A stretch of 64,000 nt of DNA from Pelagimonas varians (GTDB taxonomy: Bacteria; Pseudomonadota; Alphaproteobacteria; Rhodobacterales; Rhodobacteraceae). The position numbers were made by a program, and so were the translations under genes. Position 1 is the stretch's first letter; each line of letters starts with the position of its first letter. Below are positions 35,590 to 47,941 of this stretch, one piece after another. The notes beneath the pieces were generated by a model. That model saw only the letters and a program-made list of their open reading frames with translations, had not been told where the DNA came from and ran no database searches. The stretch is taken from the NCBI RefSeq assembly GCF_003208435.1, contig NZ_QKMF01000001.1, forward strand, positions 248,001 through 312,000. Direction: 5' to 3'.

Positions 35590-36809
35590 TGGACGGCTCC
35601 AAAGGTTTCGACGACGCCCAGACGGGCGAACAGAAAATCCGCAATTTCAACATCAACTTCGGGCCTCAGCATCCGGCGGCACACGGCGTGTTGCGCATGG
35701 TGCTTGAGCTGGACGGCGAGATTGTTGAACGTGCAGATCCGCATATTGGCCTGCTGCACCGCGGGACCGAAAAGCTCATGGAGAGCCGGACCTATTTGCA
35801 AAACCTGCCTTATCTGGACCGCCTCGACTACGTGGCCCCGATGAATCAGGAACATGCTTGGTGTCTGGCGATTGAAAAGCTGACCGGTGTCGAAGTCCCG
35901 CGTCGCGGCTCTTTGATCCGCGTGCTGTTTTCGGAAATTGGGCGGGTACTGAACCACCTGTTGAACGTGACTACGCAGGCGATGGACGTGGGGGCGCTGA
36001 CGCCGCCGCTCTGGGGCTTTGAAGAGCGTGAGAAACTCATGATCTTTTACGAGCGCGCATGCGGTGCCCGTCTTCACGCCAATTATTTCCGCCCCGGCGG
36101 TGTCCACCAAGACCTGCCTCAGGCACTGTTGGATGATATCGTCGAATGGTGCGGGACGTTTCCGGCTGTACTCGAAGATATCGACGGCTTGCTGACGGAA
36201 AACCGGATTTTCAAGCAGCGGAACTGCGATATCGGTGTGATTTCTGAACAAGAGATCCTCGATTGGGGCTATTCCGGTGTTATGGTGCGCGGCTCCGGCC
36301 TTGCTTGGGATTTGCGCCGCTCGCAGCCCTATGAGTGCTACGATGAATTCGAGTTCCAGGTGCCTATCGGCAAAAACGGCGATTGCTACGACCGTTATCT
36401 TGTCCGCATGGAAGAAATGCGCCAGTCGGTGTCGATCATCCTGCAAGCTATTGAAAAGCTGAATGCCCCCGAAGGGCAGGGCGATGTTCTGGCCCGTGGC
36501 AAGATCACACCTCCGAAGCGCGCGGATATGAAAACCTCGATGGAAAGCCTGATCCACCACTTCAAGCTCTACACCGAAGGGTTCAAAGTTCCTGCTGGTG
36601 AAGTTTATGCCTGCGTAGAAGCGCCCAAAGGCGAATTTGGCGTGTTCATGGTCTCGGATGGCACCAATAAACCATACCGTGCAAAACTACGGGCACCCGG
36701 GTTCTTGCATCTGCAATCCATGGATCACGTGGCCAAGGGACACCAGCTTGCTGATGTTGCGGCGATCATCGGTACCATGGACGTTGTGTTTGGGGAAATC
36801 GACAGATGA
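35586..36809 (+). CDS. nuoD: NADH-quinone oxidoreductase subunit D
   Basis: The 49-kDa-type subunit, 407 residues, related to the large subunit of NiFe hydrogenases but without the metal ligands; with NuoB it forms the quinone pocket. [33 protein letters not shown], the [11 protein letters not shown] segment and C-terminal [13 protein letters not shown] are typical. ATGATGG at the start gives two possible ATGs, 35586 and 35589. The next gene starts in its last codon. Confidence 0.96.
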
Positions 36810-37375
36810 TGATACGGGCGGCGGTCCTTCTTTCGGCCGCTATGGCCCTTCCGCTTTCGGCGGAAGGGATTCCTGTGTTTGACGAAACCTTGGGGTTTGA
36901 AATCTCGGGGCTTGCCTTGGATGGCGGGCTTTTGGTGAACAATGCTGGGCAGGGGTTCTTTTGCGATGTCGATGACAGCGAAAAGGCCACCCATCTGGTT
37001 TTGAGGTCGTGCATTCCGTTTCTTGGACCTTTGGCTGCGGCTGCGTTGAATGATTCATCATCAGCAGATGGTCCGCTGGAAGCCGGTTTTGTCGCTGGTC
37101 TGGAAACTCTTCCCGAACCCGCCTTTACGCCCGCGATTGTTGATGCCTTTACCGAAATGGGCTGTGTGATCGATTTTAATGGCGGCGAAGATGCCTTTAT
37201 CGCTGAGGTGGCGCATCAATTGGCGCGTTCAACCGGCTATACCGGTCCGGTCACTGATGTATCCTTCGAGGCTGTCAAACATTTGTCTGAACCCGCGGCA
37301 GACGCAATGGTAGAGCAAGGCCGCATTGTTTTGGACCGCGATGCCATGACCGCCACGTTTACCGAGTGTCAGTGA
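36806..37375 (+). CDS. Exported cysteine-paired protein in the nuo operon
   Basis: A 189-residue protein with a signal peptide ([19 protein letters not shown]) and four cysteines in the mature part. The ATGA overlap with nuoD shows it belongs to the operon. The C-terminal half (MGC...LSEPAAD...VEQGRIVLD...FTEC) aligns loosely with the whole of the next small lipoprotein, suggesting a shared domain. Function is unknown. A periplasmic location would put it on the outer face of complex I's membrane arm. Confidence 0.7.
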
Positions 37376-37427: not shown

Positions 37428-37718
37428 ATGAAGAAACTCGTTCCCGCTCTTGCTGCAATGGCTTTGACAACGGCCTGTGTGATGCCCCCCAAAGATGTGA
37501 CCGACGAAGATCTGGTCGCCTATGATGCGGCTGTGGCTTCGATCGGGTGCGATCTTCGGTCCGAGTCTGATTACCTGCCTGTTGAATTGCAAACGGGCCT
37601 GACACGCGAAAAAATCATTGAAATCGGTCAATACAAACTCTCGACCGAAGAAGTTGTGGCATTGGAAGGCGGCGGTGTCCGTCTTGTCACTGGTGCCTGC
37701 GCGCCCACAGCGGCGTAA
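37428..37718 (+). CDS. Small lipoprotein in the nuo operon
   Basis: 96 residues with a lipoprotein signal (MKKLVPALAAMALTTAC; lipobox LTTAC) and a short domain bounded by two cysteines (SIGCDLRSE ... VTGAC). An AGAAAGGC site lies upstream. The domain pattern, GC then helix, LSTEEVVALEGGGVRL and a final Cys, resembles the C-terminal half of the preceding gene. I know no function. Confidence 0.7.
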   Translation: MKKLVPALAAMALTTACVMPPKDVTDEDLVAYDAAVASIGCDLRSESDYLPVELQTGLTREKIIEIGQYKLSTEEVVALEGGGVRLVTGACAPTAA

Positions 37719-37817: not shown

Positions 37818-39113
37818 ATGCTGCGTCGTTTGCACTCCGAACAACCTGAAAGCTTTGAATTCACACCGGCCAATCTGGCCTGGGCCCAAAGTCAGGTCAG
37901 CAAGTATCCGCAAGGCCGTCAGGCCAGCGCGATTATTCCGCTGCTCTGGCGCGCGCAAGAACAAGAAGGCTGGCTGACCCGCCCCGCTATTGAATATGTC
38001 GCGGACATGCTGGACATGGCCTATATTCGTGCGCTCGAAGTGGCGTCTTTCTACTTTATGTTCCAGCTGCAACCGGTTGGATCCGTCGCCCACATCCAGA
38101 TTTGCGGTACGCTGTCTTGTATGATTTGCGGCGCAGAAGATCTGATGGCGGTTTGCAAAGACAAGATTGCCGCCAAGCCACACGCATTGTCAGCCGACGG
38201 CAAATTCAGTTGGGAAGAAGTCGAATGTCTGGGCGCTTGTACCAATGCTCCGATGGCGCAAATCGGCAAAGATTATTACGAAGATCTGACCGCCGAAAAG
38301 CTAGGTCAGTTACTGGATGATATGGCCGCTGGAAAAGTGCCTCAGGTTGGTCCGCAAAATGGACGTTTTGCGGCAGAGCCGTCTTCTGGGATTTCGTCAC
38401 TGACGGAATTTGTGAATGGCTCGATCAAGCTGAATGCCTCGGCGCAACTTGCAGCCGAAATCGGTGATACAATCAAGCGGATCGACGGCACAGAAGTTCC
38501 GGTTATTCAAGGTTGGGAAGATCAGTCTGACGGCGGCGCAGAGGCGGCGATTGCCTCGGTCGGGACACCTGCAAACACAGCTACGGCCCCTAAGGCACCC
38601 GCGGTGAAACCTGCTGCTGTGGCCGAAGAGACCGTGGAAACAGCCCCCGCCGAGCCGCTTTTGAAAGCGTCTAAACCACTTGCCGGTCAGGCGGAGCTGG
38701 CTGGGAAAAAAGGCACCTGGCGCTATGAAGGCGGCGATAAACCTGCGTCAGAGGGTCAAAAAGCCGAAAAACCTGCGGCTACGACCAATGTCGCGGACAC
38801 CCCTTCAGAGCAGGCGGAAGGTGAGAAACCTTCGACTTTGGACGCAGCCCGAGAGGGCGGTGCAGATGATCTGAAACTGATCAAGGGCGTTGGCCCAAAG
38901 CTGGAAAAAATGCTTAATTCCATGGGGTTCTACCACTTTGACCAAGTCGCGTCCTGGAAGGCGAGCGAGTTGGCTTGGGTGGATCAAAACCTTGAAGGTT
39001 TCAAGGGCCGCGCGACTCGGGACGAATGGGTGGCGCAAGCCAAAACCCTTGCGTCAGGGGAAGAAACCGAATTTGCTACCCGTGCTAAAAAGGACGACAT
39101 CTATAAAGACTAG
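37818..39113 (+). CDS. nuoE: NADH-quinone oxidoreductase subunit E with C-terminal H3TH-like extension
   Basis: The first 180 residues are a normal NuoE (24-kDa type), a thioredoxin fold binding the N1a [2Fe-2S] cluster through Cys96, Cys101, Cys137 and Cys141 (CGTLSC and CLGAC). A 250-residue extension follows: a low-complexity Ala/Pro/Glu linker, one [17 protein letters not shown] motif (about residues 290-306), and a C-terminal helix-hairpin-helix domain (residues 346-412; [28 protein letters not shown]). Total 431 residues, about twice the usual. The extension's domain recurs in the next two genes. The start at 37818 ([13 protein letters not shown]) gives the family N-terminus. Confidence 0.92.
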
Positions 39114-39145
39114 ATGTGCATAGACGCGGATAGGGAGATTCGAAG

Positions 39146-40147
39146 ATGAGCAACGTGACTGGCGGGCAGGGATGCCCGATGAAATGTTGGTCAGCGGCAG
39201 GGGTGATCGGTGTTGTGACAGCACTGATCCTGATTGCTGTGGCTGGCAAGGGTGTAATGGCAGGTTTGATCCTTGGGATCTTGGCAGCGGTGCTGCTTGG
39301 GCTGCTGTTCACGTGGTTATTTTGTGCTCCCGTTCCCGCGATTGGTGCATCCGGCAATGTCGCTGACGCAGCGGTTGCCTCTGCCGAACCGGCGGCTGTG
39401 ACGCCATCCCCAGCCCCGATTGCACAGCCGGTTGTGGCTGAGCCGGTGGCTGCAGTTCCCGAAAAGCCGGTTGAAGCCGCGCCCGTTGTGGCGGAAGCGG
39501 CTGACGCAGCTGCGGATGTTAAAGAGTCAGAGGTCGAGGCTTCAGATACGGTTGTAAAGCCAACCGCCGCTCTGGCAGGGCAAGACGAATTGTCCGGTAA
39601 AAAAGGCGATTGGCGCTACGAAGGCGGCGAAGCGCCTCAGACAGAGACCACTGAGGCGGCGCAAGCCCCGGACGCTCCGGTTGCAGCCGAATCTGTTGTT
39701 AAACCGTCAACAGCTTTGGCCGGTCAGGCTGAACTTGCCGAAAAAAAGGGCACTTGGCGCTATGAGGGCGGCGATGCTTTGCCCAAAGCGGATGAAAGCC
39801 CTGCGGTTGATGCTGGTAAAGACTATGACGGCGACGGCATTTTGGAAGGCACCGAAGAGGGCACGCGCCCTGCGTTGTTGGACGGGCCGGGTGAAGGCGG
39901 TGCGGATAATCTCAAAGAGATCAAAGGCATCGGACCGAAGCTTGAAAAAGTGTGCCATGGTCTTGGCGTCTATCACTTTAGCCAGATTGCAGCATGGAAC
40001 GAAGATGAAGTCGCTTGGGCCAACGCCAATCTGGTTGGTTTCAAAGGCCGGGTAACCCGTGACAACTGGGTTGAGCAGGCAAAAATACTGGCAGCGGGCG
40101 GCGAGACGGAATTCTCGAAACGCGTTGACAAAGGCGGGGTCTACTAG
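39146..40147 (+). CDS. Membrane-anchored protein with WRYEGG repeats, EF-hand-like loop and H3TH-like domain
   Basis: 333 residues of unknown function. Two membrane helices (about residues 15-35 and 38-60) are followed by a 75-residue Ala/Pro/Val/Glu linker, two copies of the GQxELxxKKGxWRYEGG motif (WRYEGG at 156-161 and 204-209), a perfect EF-hand-like loop (DYDGDGILEGTE, 226-237) and a C-terminal helix-hairpin-helix domain (252-315; IKGIGPKLEKV, GFKGRVTRDNWVEQA). The last domain is the same as in NuoE and the next gene. It follows nuoE by 32 bases and ends before a terminator-like hairpin. AGGGAGA lies upstream of the ATG. Confidence 0.85.
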   Translation: MSNVTGGQGCPMKCWSAAGVIGVVTALILIAVAGKGVMAGLILGILAAVLLGLLFTWLFCAPVPAIGASGNVADAAVASAEPAAVTPSPAPIAQPVVAEPVAAVPEKPVEAAPVVAEAADAAADVKESEVEASDTVVKPTAALAGQDELSGKKGDWRYEGGEAPQTETTEAAQAPDAPVAAESVVKPSTALAGQAELAEKKGTWRYEGGDALPKADESPAVDAGKDYDGDGILEGTEEGTRPALLDGPGEGGADNLKEIKGIGPKLEKVCHGLGVYHFSQIAAWNEDEVAWANANLVGFKGRVTRDNWVEQAKILAAGGETEFSKRVDKGGVY

Positions 40148-40235
40148 GACCCTGCGACACCACTATGTCTTGCGTGCTGCGCTGCAGTATGCGAGGCGTA
40201 AACCGGCACTGTTGGGGAGGAACGGGGCTTTAATT

Positions 40236-40257
40236 GCGCAGACGGTCTGCGCTTTTT
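40236..40257 (+). terminator. Terminator-like hairpin inside the nuo operon
   Basis: GCGCAG and CTGCGC (extendable to eight bases) close a tight loop and are followed directly by TTTTT. It lies between the membrane-anchored H3TH protein and the next H3TH gene, within the nuo cluster, so it would act as an attenuator or split the operon. Confidence 0.75.
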
Positions 40258-40276
40258 AATTGCTTGGAGCGATGAC

Positions 40277-41098
40277 GTGACCATTACGACCCCCATGATG
40301 AAGATGACACCAGATTTTACACCTGTTGCCCGTGCATTCGCACTGCAAACCCGTATCGCCGGACAATCGAGCGAAACGATGATGCGTTTGGCGATGTTGC
40401 CTTGGAACAGCTGGACTGCTGGCGTGACTGCTTTGAAGACAACTCCGGCAGCGAAACCTGCTGCCAAACCCCAAGCCGCCCCTGTTGCGGTGGCCAAGAA
40501 AGCCGCGGTTGCCAAGCCATTGGCCAAAAAAGCTGCACCAAAGACGCCAGAGAAATCCGTTGCAGACGTCGCTGCGAAACCTGTAGCGCTGGTCGCCGAA
40601 ACACCTGTTGCTGCAAAGCCGGTCGCTGTGAAGCCCGAGGCTGCTGCCCCGGTGGCTCCGGCGAAAATCGTTGCTGCACCTGTCGCTGACAAGCCGGTTG
40701 CAAAAGCCAAACCTGTTGATTCGAAACCTGCCGCGCCCGTTGCCGCAGTGGTTGCAGAGACCAAGCCCGTACCAAAGGCCGCGGCCAAAGTTGAAGCCAA
40801 GCCGGAAATCAAAGCCGCAGCCAAGGTCGCGCCAAAGGCAGAGACCAAAGCCGATGCAGACAAGCCTGCGATGCTTAAGGCGGCGCGTAACGGCCAGCCG
40901 GATGACCTAACGCAATTGAAAGGTGTTGGCCCCAAGTTGGCTTTGGCCTTGCAAGAGGCGGGCATCTACCACTACGACCAGATCGCGGAATGGACAGATG
41001 TTCAAACCGCTTGGGTTGACGAAAATATCGCTGGTGTGCGTGGCCGTGCGTCGCGCAATGAATGGGTCGAACAGGCCCTAGAACTGGCAACGGCATAA
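40277..41098 (+). CDS. Histone-H1-like linker protein with C-terminal H3TH-like domain
   Basis: 273 residues. The first 50 form a short helical segment (FALQTRIAGQSSETMMRLAM, with WNSW) faintly like phasins. Residues 55-200 are a low-complexity run of Ala, Lys, Pro and Val (KKAAVAKPLAKKAAPK and similar), resembling histone H1-type tails. Residues about 205-270 are the third copy of the helix-hairpin-helix domain (LTQLKGVGPKLALALQ, WVDENIAGVRGRASR). A basic tail plus this fold suggests nucleic-acid binding, which is inference. GTG at 40277 follows GGAG by eight bases. Confidence 0.85.
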   Translation: MTITTPMMKMTPDFTPVARAFALQTRIAGQSSETMMRLAMLPWNSWTAGVTALKTTPAAKPAAKPQAAPVAVAKKAAVAKPLAKKAAPKTPEKSVADVAAKPVALVAETPVAAKPVAVKPEAAAPVAPAKIVAAPVADKPVAKAKPVDSKPAAPVAAVVAETKPVPKAAAKVEAKPEIKAAAKVAPKAETKADADKPAMLKAARNGQPDDLTQLKGVGPKLALALQEAGIYHYDQIAEWTDVQTAWVDENIAGVRGRASRNEWVEQALELATA

Positions 41099-41332: not shown

Positions 41333-41339
41333 GGTGGCT

Positions 41340-42638
41340 ATGCTTCAGGATCAGGATCGGATCTTTACCAACCTCTACGGAATGCATGACCGGACACTGG
41401 CCGGCGCGCAAAAGCGCGGCCATTGGGATGGGACTGCGAAGATCATTCAAAACGGACGCGATTGGATCATTGATCAAATGAAGGCGTCGGGCCTGCGTGG
41501 TCGCGGCGGGGCGGGTTTCCCGACCGGTCTGAAATGGTCCTTCATGCCAAAAGAAAGCGACGGTCGCCCGTCCTATTTGGTGGTGAACGCAGACGAATCC
41601 GAGCCAGGCACCTGTAAAGACCGCGAAATCATGCGCCATGATCCGCATACGCTGATCGAAGGGTGCTTGATCGCCTCTTTCGCGATGCAGGCCAACAAAT
41701 GCTACATCTACATTCGCGGCGAATACATCCGCGAAAAAGAAGCGCTGCAAGCGGCAATCGACGAAGCCTATGAAGCGGGTTTGCTGGGTAAGAACGCTGC
41801 TGGCTCTGGCTGGGACTTTGATTTGTTCCTGCATCATGGAGCTGGCGCGTATATTTGCGGTGAAGAAACCGCTTTGCTTGAAAGCCTTGAAGGCAAGAAG
41901 GGCATGCCGCGGATGAAACCGCCATTCCCTGCGGGCTCTGGCCTGTATGGTTGCCCGACCACGGTGAACAATGTCGAATCAATCGCAGTTGTTCCAACTA
42001 TTTTGCGCCGCGGCCCTGAATGGTTTGCGGGCTTTGGCCGTCAGAACAACGCGGGTACAAAGCTGTTTGCGATTTCCGGCCACGTCAACAACCCATGTGT
42101 TGTTGAAGAGGCGATGTCGATTTCCTTCGAAGAGCTGATCGAGAAGCACTGCGGTGGTATTCGCGGCGGTTGGGACAATCTGCTGGCAGTAATTCCCGGC
42201 GGGTCGTCGGTACCTTGTGTGCGCGGTGAGCACATGAAAGACGCGATCATGGATTTCGACTACCTGCGCGGCGAACTTGGCTCCGGCCTTGGGACTGCGG
42301 CGGTGATCGTCATGGACAAACAGACTGACATAATCAAAGCGATCTGGCGTCTGTCCAAGTTTTACAAACATGAAAGCTGCGGCCAGTGTACCCCTTGCCG
42401 CGAAGGCACGGGCTGGATGATGCGCGTGATGGATCGTTTGGTGCGCGGCGAAGCAGACGTCGAAGAAATCGATATGCTTTGGGACGTGACCAAGCAGGTC
42501 GAAGGCCACACAATTTGCGCCCTTGGCGATGCGGCTGCTTGGCCGATTCAGGGTTTGATCCGCAACTTCCGCGAGGAAATTGAAGACCGGATCAAAGCTC
42601 AAAAGTCCGGAAAAGTCAGCGCAATCGCGGCTGAGTAA
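41340..42638 (+). CDS. nuoF: NADH-quinone oxidoreductase subunit F
   Basis: NADH-binding subunit of complex I, carrying FMN and cluster N3, 432 residues. The NADH/FMN loop [13 protein letters not shown], the [13 protein letters not shown] segment and the cluster ligands [13 protein letters not shown] and later [10 protein letters not shown] are all present. An in-frame GTG at 41334 is possible, but ATG 41340 ([14 protein letters not shown]) fits the family. It is followed by a terminator-like hairpin. Confidence 0.96.
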
Positions 42639-42687: not shown

Positions 42688-42871
42688 GAGTCTGCGTCCT
42701 ATCCCATGCAAACCGAATGCGTTTGTGAACTCTGTAGGCTTGACCTATTGTCACGCAAACGCAAAACTGATTGTTGCCAAGACATTCATTTGGCTTATTG
42801 ATTTATGTCGTTTAGAGTATCATCACAGCTTTTAGCCGCAATTTCGCGCCGCTGTGCAGAGGAGGCCAATC

Positions 42872-43222
42872 ATGGAACGTCTTGCAATTTTAGTAATGAT
42901 GGGGCTCGCGGTCTCTGGGTGTTCGAACATTGGCCTGCTGTCGCATAAAAATGATCCCATGTTTGATGGCATCCGGTTTGGCGGCAAAGCCAAGGCGCAA
43001 GATGCGAATACGGAGCGCCAGCATTTTGTTTCAACGGTCAAACCCGTTTCGAAGTCATTCGACGGCGCACGTGAGGCCGCGGAATACAAAGGTATTCGTC
43101 ATTGTATTGAATACTTTGGTACGTCTGAAATCGACTGGCAGGTTGGCCCGGATACAGATCCAGCCGCACTTGTGATTGAAAATGATAGCGTGACCTATAT
43201 GGGCACATGCCGCGACGCATAG
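42872..43222 (+). CDS. Small lipoprotein between nuoF and nuoG
   Basis: 116 residues with a lipoprotein signal (MERLAILVMMGLAVSGC; lipobox VSGC) and two later cysteines, one in IRHCIEYFG and one in MGTC near the end, likely a disulfide. The body has one helix and a short beta region (IDWQVGPDTDPAALVIEND). AGGAGG lies upstream of the ATG at 42872. No known domain. It may have its own promoter in the 190-base stretch after the nuoF hairpin. Confidence 0.7.
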   Translation: MERLAILVMMGLAVSGCSNIGLLSHKNDPMFDGIRFGGKAKAQDANTERQHFVSTVKPVSKSFDGAREAAEYKGIRHCIEYFGTSEIDWQVGPDTDPAALVIENDSVTYMGTCRDA

Positions 43223-43343: not shown

Positions 43344-43754
43344 ATGCGCCCGATTCCCGTTGTTGTGTTTACCCTTGTCCTTGCTTTGACCTTTCCCCTA
43401 GCGGGCCCCGCCTTGGCAAAGGTTCCGCTGAGCAAAGTCTCCGCGATTGATGATTCCCTGATGGAGGTCGCGATCGCTGACGAGATTCGCAAGCAGTGCA
43501 ATGGTATTAGCGCACGCATGTTTCGTGCCTTGGGCCGGCTTGAGGATTTGAAGGCCTTGGCGCTTTCGATGGGTTACAGCAAAAAAGAAATCGAAGACTA
43601 TGTGACGTCGAAGTCGGAAAAACGGCGTATGCGCAGCAAGGCAGAGGCGTTTTTGTCCGGGCAGGGCGTTAACCCTAAGGACAAATCGCAATTATGCCGG
43701 TTTGGCTCGGCCGAGATGAAACGCGGCACTGGGATCGGCACATTGCTGCGGTAA
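43344..43754 (+). CDS. DUF5333-type exported protein
   Basis: 136 residues: signal peptide (MRPIPVVVFTLVLALTFPLAGPALA in the first 25), then a helical body beginning LSKVSAIDDSLMEVAIADEI and containing ALSMGYSKKEIEDYVTSKSEK. This pattern matches DUF5333, a Rhodobacterales family found near nuo genes. Two cysteines could pair. Its role in complex I assembly or envelope function is unknown. Confidence 0.75.
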   Translation: MRPIPVVVFTLVLALTFPLAGPALAKVPLSKVSAIDDSLMEVAIADEIRKQCNGISARMFRALGRLEDLKALALSMGYSKKEIEDYVTSKSEKRRMRSKAEAFLSGQGVNPKDKSQLCRFGSAEMKRGTGIGTLLR

Positions 43755-46066: not shown

Positions 46067-46465
46067 ATGCGCAACGTCGCCCTCATATCCCTTGTTGGCA
46101 TGGCCAGCAGCCTTAGCGCCTGTACGGAACAATCCGAACAGGTCGAGCTGCCCTTTGTCCCGGAATATGGCGGTGTCGAAACGCGGCTTTTGGATGGTGA
46201 TCTTGTGAACTTCCACGTGAAAATGCGCGGTGCGCGTACGGTCACGGATGTGGATGACTATGCCGAATGTGCGGCGGCGCAATATGCGTTGATCCGCGGT
46301 TACGGCTTTGCGCGGCATTTGCGCACGACTGTGAACGAAGAGGGTGGCCTCTGGCGAGGAGATGCGGTTTATACCATCTCGCCGGCGCTGCCCCGCGGGC
46401 TAAAGACGATCGACGCAGAAGTCGTCGCCTCGGCCTGTACTGAGAACGGAATACCGATGGTATGA
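46067..46465 (+). CDS. Small lipoprotein between nuoG and nuoH
   Basis: 132 residues with a lipoprotein signal ([19 protein letters not shown]; lipobox LSAC) and two cysteines in the mature part ([15 protein letters not shown] and VASACTENG) likely to form a disulfide. The mature domain has [17 protein letters not shown]. It begins four bases after the nuoG stop and ends eight bases before nuoH, so it is firmly part of the operon. Function unknown. Confidence 0.75.
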
Positions 46466-47569: not shown

Positions 47570-47617
47570 TGAAACGCCGGTGCTGACATGTGCTTTGTTT
47601 CAGGATTTGGAGGCAGT

Positions 47618-47941
47618 ATGAGCGATCTAAAAGATAGCCTTTTGAATGCAAAATACATCGACATCATTTCGCTTGCGGATTTTGTCGTTCGTGATTGCGG
47701 TCTGCCGGATATGGACGAAGACGGCAATTTGATGCCGCAAGCCAACGAAGTTGCAGCGGCCTTGTTTCGCTGGGCTGCCGGAGCACATGCGGCGCCCGGC
47801 ACACTAGAGACACTGGATGATGCCGCCACCGTGGATGCATCCTTTGATGAATTTGATGAAAACGGGGATCCGCTGATGGATGCGGAGACTGCCGAAAAGC
47901 GAGAGGCCGAAATCAAGGCCCAAGCCGAGGAGACAAATTGA
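47618..47941 (+). CDS. Small acidic protein between nuoH and nuoI
   Basis: 107 residues, highly acidic in the second half ([20 protein letters not shown]), soluble, with no signal or membrane segment. The sequence DENGDPLMD has spaced acidic residues reminiscent of a metal-binding loop. TTGGAGGCA fixes the ATG at 47618. The stop overlaps the nuoI start (TGATG-type junction). I know no family or function. A chaperone-like role in loading the iron-sulfur subunit NuoI would be speculative. Confidence 0.65.

Follow-up and report, generated by a model that had tools for sequence, protein, structure and literature searches.

Three consecutive genes of the respiratory complex I operon in a 64-kb stretch of the Pelagimonas varians genome (hereafter the window; genome GCF_003208435.1, label G000, 99.99 % complete) encode proteins that end in one homologous helix-hairpin-helix (HhH) domain: NuoE, a second protein (gene from 39146) related to protein-O of a photosynthetic complex, and a third protein (gene from 40277). 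By analogy with the granule protein PhaH, these tails may bind nucleic acid and serve as tethers by which electron-transport complexes are anchored to the nucleoid, a tentative reading to which somewhat less than an even chance is given.

One HhH domain on three proteins

Pairwise BLASTP of the C-termini aligned NuoE with the second protein (53 % over 153 aa, E 5e-49) and with the third (52 % over 83 aa, E 7e-28), and the second with the third (41 % over 83 aa, E 1e-22); the likeness is not due to chance, as the sequence-only reading, which had aligned the three proteins by eye, had supposed. The pattern given in that reading was correct overall and wrong in three letters: the third protein has LTQLKGVGPKL, with T in place of K and L in place of I or V, and the second has VYHF, with V in place of F or I. 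The domain, which had been put at 65 residues, is about 75 residues long and occupies residues 338-412 of NuoE (38829-39053, + strand; by BLASTP, domain alignment and AlphaFold2 model), 242-316 of the second protein (39869-40093, +; by BLASTP and domain alignment) and 197-271 of the third (40865-41089, +; by BLASTP and a subthreshold HHH_5 match). Its pattern reads D-D-L-K ... G-x-Y-H-F-D-Q-I-A-x-W ... F-K-G-R-x-x-R-D-x-W-V-x-Q-A. The GxG hairpin between two helices appears as GVGP or GIGP in all three domains, and the model of the NuoE domain is helical.

All matches to Pfam HhH families lay below the curated cut-offs: HHH_5 scored 15.5 bits for NuoE and 24.2 bits for the third protein (cut-off 27), HHH scored 17.3 bits for the third protein (cut-off 24), and the second protein matched only IMS_HHH (14.4 bits; cut-off 24.4). 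Among 45 diverse domain rows, HHH_5 was matched by 20 and Cdd1 by 23 at E 0.01 or better; 14 positions were conserved at ≥90 % in these rows and two more were invariant. Arg61 and Arg64 (domain numbering) were kept in 83-100 % of each protein class. One locus (L010), a duplicate of a genome used elsewhere in this work (G053), was dropped from the domain statistics.

An AlphaFold2 model of NuoE residues 336-431 (mean predicted local distance difference test score, pLDDT, 82.7) was all-helical with two hairpins, and its best structure matches were the RadA N-terminal domain (Z 6.6, root-mean-square deviation 2.9, 61 aligned residues), part of human polymerase theta (Z 6.6), NusA AR2 (Z 6.3) and the LEAFY oligomerisation domain (Z 4.9), all with Z under 8, which may mean only a common arrangement. 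Foldseek alone gave no match below E 0.18 for this model. A profile search against solved structures returned RadA (E 0.0005), NusA AR2 (E 0.0009) and the ribosomal protein eL32/L32e (E 6.7e-05). The HhH assignment is thus supported by sequence profile and by predicted structure, through RadA and NusA AR2, with which the domain shares its predicted fold, although identity is about 10-26 % in the rows listed and the hairpins of NusA AR2, read from the Escherichia coli sequence, are acidic, unlike the basic hairpins described below. The earlier link to FEN1-like proteins found no support: a FEN1-like nuclease was dropped when the Pfam search returned no nuclease domain, and FEN1 and 5'-nucleases were absent among the structure matches listed, an absence that proves nothing. 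The domain presumably belongs to COG3743. A link to trypanosome mitochondrial L21 was also discarded; chain BS of 6yxx was matched structurally, but L21 in that structure is chain AV.

The closest described relative by function is PhaH. The PhaH family NF045508 matched NuoE, the second and the third protein with E 4e-18, 5e-15 and 3e-15; the scores (66.3, 56.4 and 57.3 bits) were below the cut-off of 250 bits, and the matches covered the C-terminal domain, plus part of the linker in the first and third. According to the excerpted text of a 2025 review (PMC13052382), the N-terminus of PhaH binds polyhydroxybutyrate (PHB) granules and its HhH domain binds DNA nonspecifically, PhaH positions granules on the nucleoid, and loss of phaH disorganises them. 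The Caulobacter phasin and the window proteins have in common a C-terminal HhH domain after a low-complexity linker; they differ in that the N-terminal parts of the window proteins had no match to it. Any link of these proteins to PHB granules would be conjectural, although three PhaC_N matches occur in the window genome.

The domain is essentially an alphaproteobacterial add-on. A survey of 190 genomes of the class by PhaH-family and by domain search gave matches in 20 and 19 genomes, respectively, three in the family of the window; of 14 control genomes, the PhaH-family search matched Caulobacter vibrioides and Methanocaldococcus jannaschii, one of them above the cut-off. Across 200 genomes of the phylum the domain was found in 42: 39 from the same class (eight of them from the same family, the window genome included) and three from a single genus outside it (E 1e-8 to 1.4e-7). 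Of the 20 loci of the PhaH-family search, 18 yielded the domain by script, the window itself being one. The others sat on ribosomal protein L21 (L113-L116, L122), on S2 (L123), on NuoE in two other families (L111, L117) and in one family member, together with its protein-O (L112), and on proteins with an N-terminal hydrophobic stretch, in some followed by long helical-looking stretches (L118, L119, L121, L124, L126, L128); in L125 the carrier was a short frame of unclear nature. L127, from another family, has a membrane protein (frame from 219) with two tandem copies of the domain at its C-terminus.

NCBIfam adds PhaH to the carriers, and holds L21 and S2 families with the same extension (NF008915, NF008916, NF008966), which resemble the window proteins in the domain and differ from them in the host. 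Any idea of a domain specific to complex I therefore falls, as it is also found on L21, S2, PhaH and several membrane proteins. Searches of the window genome found four copies, those of the three nuo-operon proteins and a degenerate one on L21. This L21 copy (L006 1102-1683) is shortened, and its second hairpin is gone.

Protein-O with and without photosynthesis

The second protein (39146-40147, +, 333 aa) comprises a predicted membrane hairpin, an acidic linker, the HhH domain and a C-terminal tail. It matched chain O of the reaction centre-light-harvesting complex 1 (RC-LH1) of Dinoroseobacter shibae (8yy9_O) with E 3.3e-44, to which domain and linker contributed 148.9 bits and the membrane hairpin 12.6 bits, and also a chain named '41 kd complex I subunit' (9wqv_a; E 4.7e-27). 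The hairpin (39179-39325, +; residues 12-60, with predicted helices at 12-32 and 37-60), overlooked in the sequence-only reading, has Cys10, Cys14 and Cys60 at its ends. Searched on its own, the N-terminal part gave E 0.038 for 9lts_A ('Protein LRC') and E 0.094 for 8yy9_O, with an unrelated tetraspanin at E 0.022. A full-length model was of low quality (mean pLDDT 55.7; all Foldseek matches at E 0.4 or above), and only the membrane hairpin and the domain were usable. Just ahead of the HhH domain lies a DYDGDGILEG loop (39821-39850, +; from sequence), which by its pattern we take to resemble a calcium loop; DxDxDGxxEG was present in 15 of 60 protein-O sequences.

The excerpted report of the D. 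shibae structure (PMC12079452) describes protein-O, from cryo-electron microscopy of the photosynthetic RC-LH1, as a protein with its gene between nuoE and nuoF, whose N-terminal hairpin, which contains a Cys10-Cys59 disulfide, lies between RC-L and LH1 and whose C-terminal domain was not resolved; in the same text its authors noted a likeness to NuoE C-termini and called the function of protein-O obscure. The window protein has the same architecture, a two-helix membrane hairpin with a cysteine at each end, a long linker and an HhH domain, encoded between nuoE and nuoF. It differs in length (333 vs 239 aa), in carrying two copies of a linker motif (see below) and in the genome around it: a PF00124 (Photo_RC) search of the window genome gave no match, and the protein therefore cannot be a reaction-centre subunit there.

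A census of the family was made with 100 genomes, one per genus and the window genome included, of which 38 had a Photo_RC match. NuoE was found in 99; the remaining genome (G032), which has Photo_RC and no NuoE match at 1e-40, was left out, and all family counts refer to the 99. NuoE was in two pieces on two contigs in G098, and the loci of G022 and G028 were cut by contig ends, so a few absences may be false. Protein-O, scored by script as a two-helix HhH protein beside NuoE, was found in 59 genomes, 24 of the 37 with Photo_RC and 35 of the 62 without (Fisher p 0.53). By a rule-based count, 27 of the 35 copies in genomes lacking Photo_RC keep the hairpin cysteine pair, as do 14 of the 25 in genomes that have it.

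Being about equally common with and without reaction centres, protein-O does not have photosynthesis as its general role; the protein family serves some purpose outside the reaction centre and may have been recruited into RC-LH1. A photosynthesis-specific role of the second protein is contradicted by the census together with the missing Photo_RC match. An explanation in which the protein is a reaction-centre assembly subunit that stands in the nuo operon by chance, with an incidental shared tail, can point to the identity of 8yy9_O as a reaction-centre chain and to the hairpin resolved between RC-L and LH1 in the excerpted report cited above; it is contradicted as a general role by the census and by the retained cysteine pair, could apply in phototrophs alone, through a secondary recruitment, and is considered very improbable. 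The reading of protein-O is corrected accordingly: it was discovered in a reaction centre, yet is about as common in family genomes that have none.

Linkers, co-occurrence and a possible leash to the nucleoid

NuoE (37818-39113, +, 431 aa) consists of the complex I 24-kDa subunit core (residues ~1-235), a long linker and the HhH domain. It matched PF01257 and, from its first residue, NF009040 (E 1.1e-175, residues 1-427, 585.2 bits), and was the only one of the three proteins to reach the whole-protein cut-off of that family (514 bits). NuoE thus fits in full a family of NuoE proteins with a C-terminal extension, the name of which states no function for it. Because 8qby_E, a 239-aa NuoE from what we take to be Paracoccus complex I, aligned with residues 1-235 only, the extension begins where that protein ends. 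In the census, a script run on the nuo loci found the domain on NuoE in 80 genomes and none in 19, in one of which (G022) the gene is truncated by the contig end. With 19 genomes showing none and the 8qby NuoE ending near residue 235, complex I can work without the NuoE domain, and a need for it in complex I as such is contradicted. The NuoE domain was rarer in genomes with Photo_RC (25 of 37 vs 55 of 62 without, p 0.016). One genome with Photo_RC (G015; L022) has a NuoE of 225 aa without the domain and a protein-O that keeps it, as do G023, G053, G077 and G083.

NuoE domain and protein-O tended to occur together: both were present in 54 genomes, the NuoE domain only in 26, protein-O only in 5 and neither in 14 (Fisher p 0.0015, an optimistic value because the genomes are related). 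In the 54 genomes with both, the two domains were more alike within a genome (0.668) than between genomes (0.630; permutation p 0.0002), with extremes of 93 % (G003) and 84 % (G013); the window pair is not homogenised (61 % vs a mean of 67 %). The third class of carriers, defined as HhH proteins with fewer than two membrane helices (12 proteins, among them that of G082 and several with other N-termini), gave no within-genome signal (p 0.48 and 0.42, from only 10 and 11 genomes). Codons of shared residues also agreed more often within genomes (0.57 vs 0.49), which codon bias alone could produce. A domain tree (75 columns, 137 rows) had interleaved classes and many unresolved forks.

NuoE and the second protein also share two features that had gone unnoticed in the sequence-only reading. 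One is a linker motif of about 22 residues, present once in NuoE (38673-38738, +), where it is 86 % identical to a copy in the second protein, and twice in the latter (39566-39634 and 39707-39781, both +); with E values up to 10 allowed, the genome yielded no copy beyond these three. LAGQxELAxRKGxWxYE as a pattern was present in 16 of 60 protein-O, in 6 of 81 NuoE with domain and in 0 of 12 third-class proteins. The other is a C-terminal tail, ETEF.. ending in IY or VY, which the third protein lacks. The motif behaves like a separate docking peptide of the nuo operon, and it is suggested to work on its own, since one NuoE without HhH domain (L101 123-989, G078) ends in it. Among genomes without protein-O the motif is on NuoE in 4 of 26, and among those with protein-O in 2 of 54 (p 0.08), so an exchange of the motif between the two proteins is suggestive only and was not adopted.

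These results bear on a protein-protein adaptor, in which the HhH domains would bind each other or a common partner and so hold NuoE, the third protein and protein-O together; in phototrophs this would place complex I close to the reaction centre. The co-occurrence, the greater likeness within genomes, the linker motif confined to NuoE and protein-O, and the presence of NusA AR2 and the LEAFY oligomerisation domain among the fold matches all favour such a function, and self-assembly of the three proteins, as first suggested from the sequence, is possible. Homogenisation can, however, be gene conversion without function and is missing from the window pair, the third class gives no signal of it, and basic hairpins differ from the acidic ones of NusA AR2; we regard the adaptor as unlikely, though deserving of serious weight. 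A near-neutral passenger, a mobile tag at the C-terminus that gene conversion has spread and that matters little to its hosts, would fit the 19 NuoE without domain and the low-complexity, variable linkers. The strong conservation across hosts in the 45 rows and the NuoE fusions in two other families speak against it and make it quite improbable.

The domain has the charge pattern that would be expected of a module binding a DNA backbone. The two hairpin segments (positions 16-24 and 57-64) had a mean charge of +5.4 in NuoE (81) and in protein-O (60), and the rest of the domain -7.0 and -6.3, respectively. A hairpin charge of +3 or more was found in 161 of 169 domains (78 of 81 NuoE, 58 of 60 protein-O, 11 of 12 third-class and 14 of 16 others); the three window domains have +6, +5 and +5, with basic residues on both hairpins. 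Six of eight conserved basic positions fall in the hairpins (P 0.0013), as do none of seven conserved acidic ones.

In the reading preferred here, the three tails would represent a single PhaH-type HhH module that is mobile in Alphaproteobacteria and sits behind long flexible linkers, and its two basic hairpins would most likely grip a DNA (or RNA) backbone irrespective of sequence. NuoE sits at the cytoplasmic tip of complex I. The NuoE module would hang from this tip, that of protein-O from its membrane hairpin, and that of the third protein from its N-terminal segment. By analogy with PhaH we infer that complexes are held to the nucleoid through the NuoE and protein-O tails on a loose leash, which could space or cluster complex I relative to DNA as PhaH is reported to space PHB granules; nucleic-acid binding, the nucleoid as partner and an effect on position are all carried over from that protein. 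The earlier guess that the peripheral arm is tied to the nucleoid thus has a precedent in PhaH. The hosts of the domain, which are membrane proteins or belong to large assemblies (complex I, L21, S2), count in favour, as does the similar frequency of protein-O in genomes without reaction centres.

Several observations weigh against the leash. The segment pair 16-24/57-64 ranks first of 3540 possible pairs, a descriptive rank only, because its borders were chosen after conservation had been seen, and taken as a whole the domain has a slight negative net charge (mean -1.6 in NuoE, -0.9 in protein-O and -2.4 in the third class). The L21 copy of the window genome has lost its second hairpin and the charge on it (0). 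Linker charges range from -34 to +28 in protein-O and from -27 to +15 in NuoE (window: -21 and -6, respectively); positive and negative linkers numbered 35 and 35 of the 74 NuoE measured (no linker was measured in the other 7 of 81), 20 and 37 of 60 protein-O, and 6 and 6 of 12 third-class proteins, so that, with no common charge, no conserved polycation aids binding. The fold scores all lie under Z 8, and the fold relative NusA AR2 binds proteins (6ib8 is a SuhB-NusA AR2 complex). The domain is missing from NuoE in 19 genomes, 40 of the 99 nuo loci show no protein-O, and the same-genome likeness and the interleaved tree could reflect gene conversion or joint function. A literature search found no binding data on NuoE or protein-O.

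The partner of the tether might also be RNA: the domain would then bind rRNA or mRNA and hold the translation of membrane complexes near their site of assembly. L21 and S2 bear the domain and eL32/L32e was matched by profile, but the sole reported activity found for the module, in the excerpted review cited above, is DNA binding by PhaH, and the L21 copy of the window genome is degenerate; this is held to be improbable. Returning to the nucleoid leash, a more far-reaching version would put the DNA-gripping tag of PHB granules on complex I, on a membrane partner and, in phototrophs, on the reaction centre as well. Rhodobacteraceae would thus keep their electron-transport chain leashed to the nucleoid, and the linker motif, on NuoE or protein-O, would supply a second contact; taken as a whole, this version is unlikely.

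Should the tails bind DNA, the cell would be organised with a respiratory complex tethered to its chromosome, and across Alphaproteobacteria a single domain would connect ribosomes, respiration and photosynthesis with the positioning of granules. No proposal of a nucleoid tether for complex I was found in titles and abstract openings, a search in which subscription journals were mostly not covered. The domain is already known in databases, and part of the pattern in one paper, as excerpted (PMC12079452); to our knowledge, it is new that protein-O is independent of photosynthesis and that the domain is tied to PhaH, and so are the charge pattern, the third gene and the linker motif.

The third protein and the operon context

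The third gene (40277-41098, +, GTG start) encodes 273 aa, composed of a short N-terminal segment, a basic linker and the HhH domain without a tail. The segment, read from the sequence as TPDFTP..LAMLPW, recurs in G002, G020, G025 and G086 and had no Pfam match; none of the four third-class N-terminal parts that were tried matched a phasin in Pfam. The linker is rich in Lys, Ala and Pro, with a net charge of +15 over 146 residues. A polycation tether of the histone H1 type was rejected as a general rule, since the sign of the linker charge varies across relatives, though the third protein has +15. In G082 (L110 1645-2277) a second domain copy is encoded outside the nuo locus; the protein that bears it has one predicted membrane helix and a long stretch that looks helical.

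Between the second and the third gene lies a terminator-like stem-loop followed by TTTTT (40236-40252, +), which may separate their expression; the stem-loop scan gave five sites in the region vs 3.8 expected from shuffles, and the element is therefore weak. The set of three genes is bounded downstream by a gene at 41334-42638 (+), recognised by position and translation, which we take to be nuoF from its operon place and protein family, and which served as the NuoF probe. Five other small open reading frames between the nuo genes (36806-37375, 37428-37718, 42854-43222, 46067-46465 and 47588-47941) had no Pfam match up to E 1, and presumably resemble the unidentified reading frames of Rhodobacter nuo operons. 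A further small frame among the nuo genes, at 43344-43754, is DUF5333.

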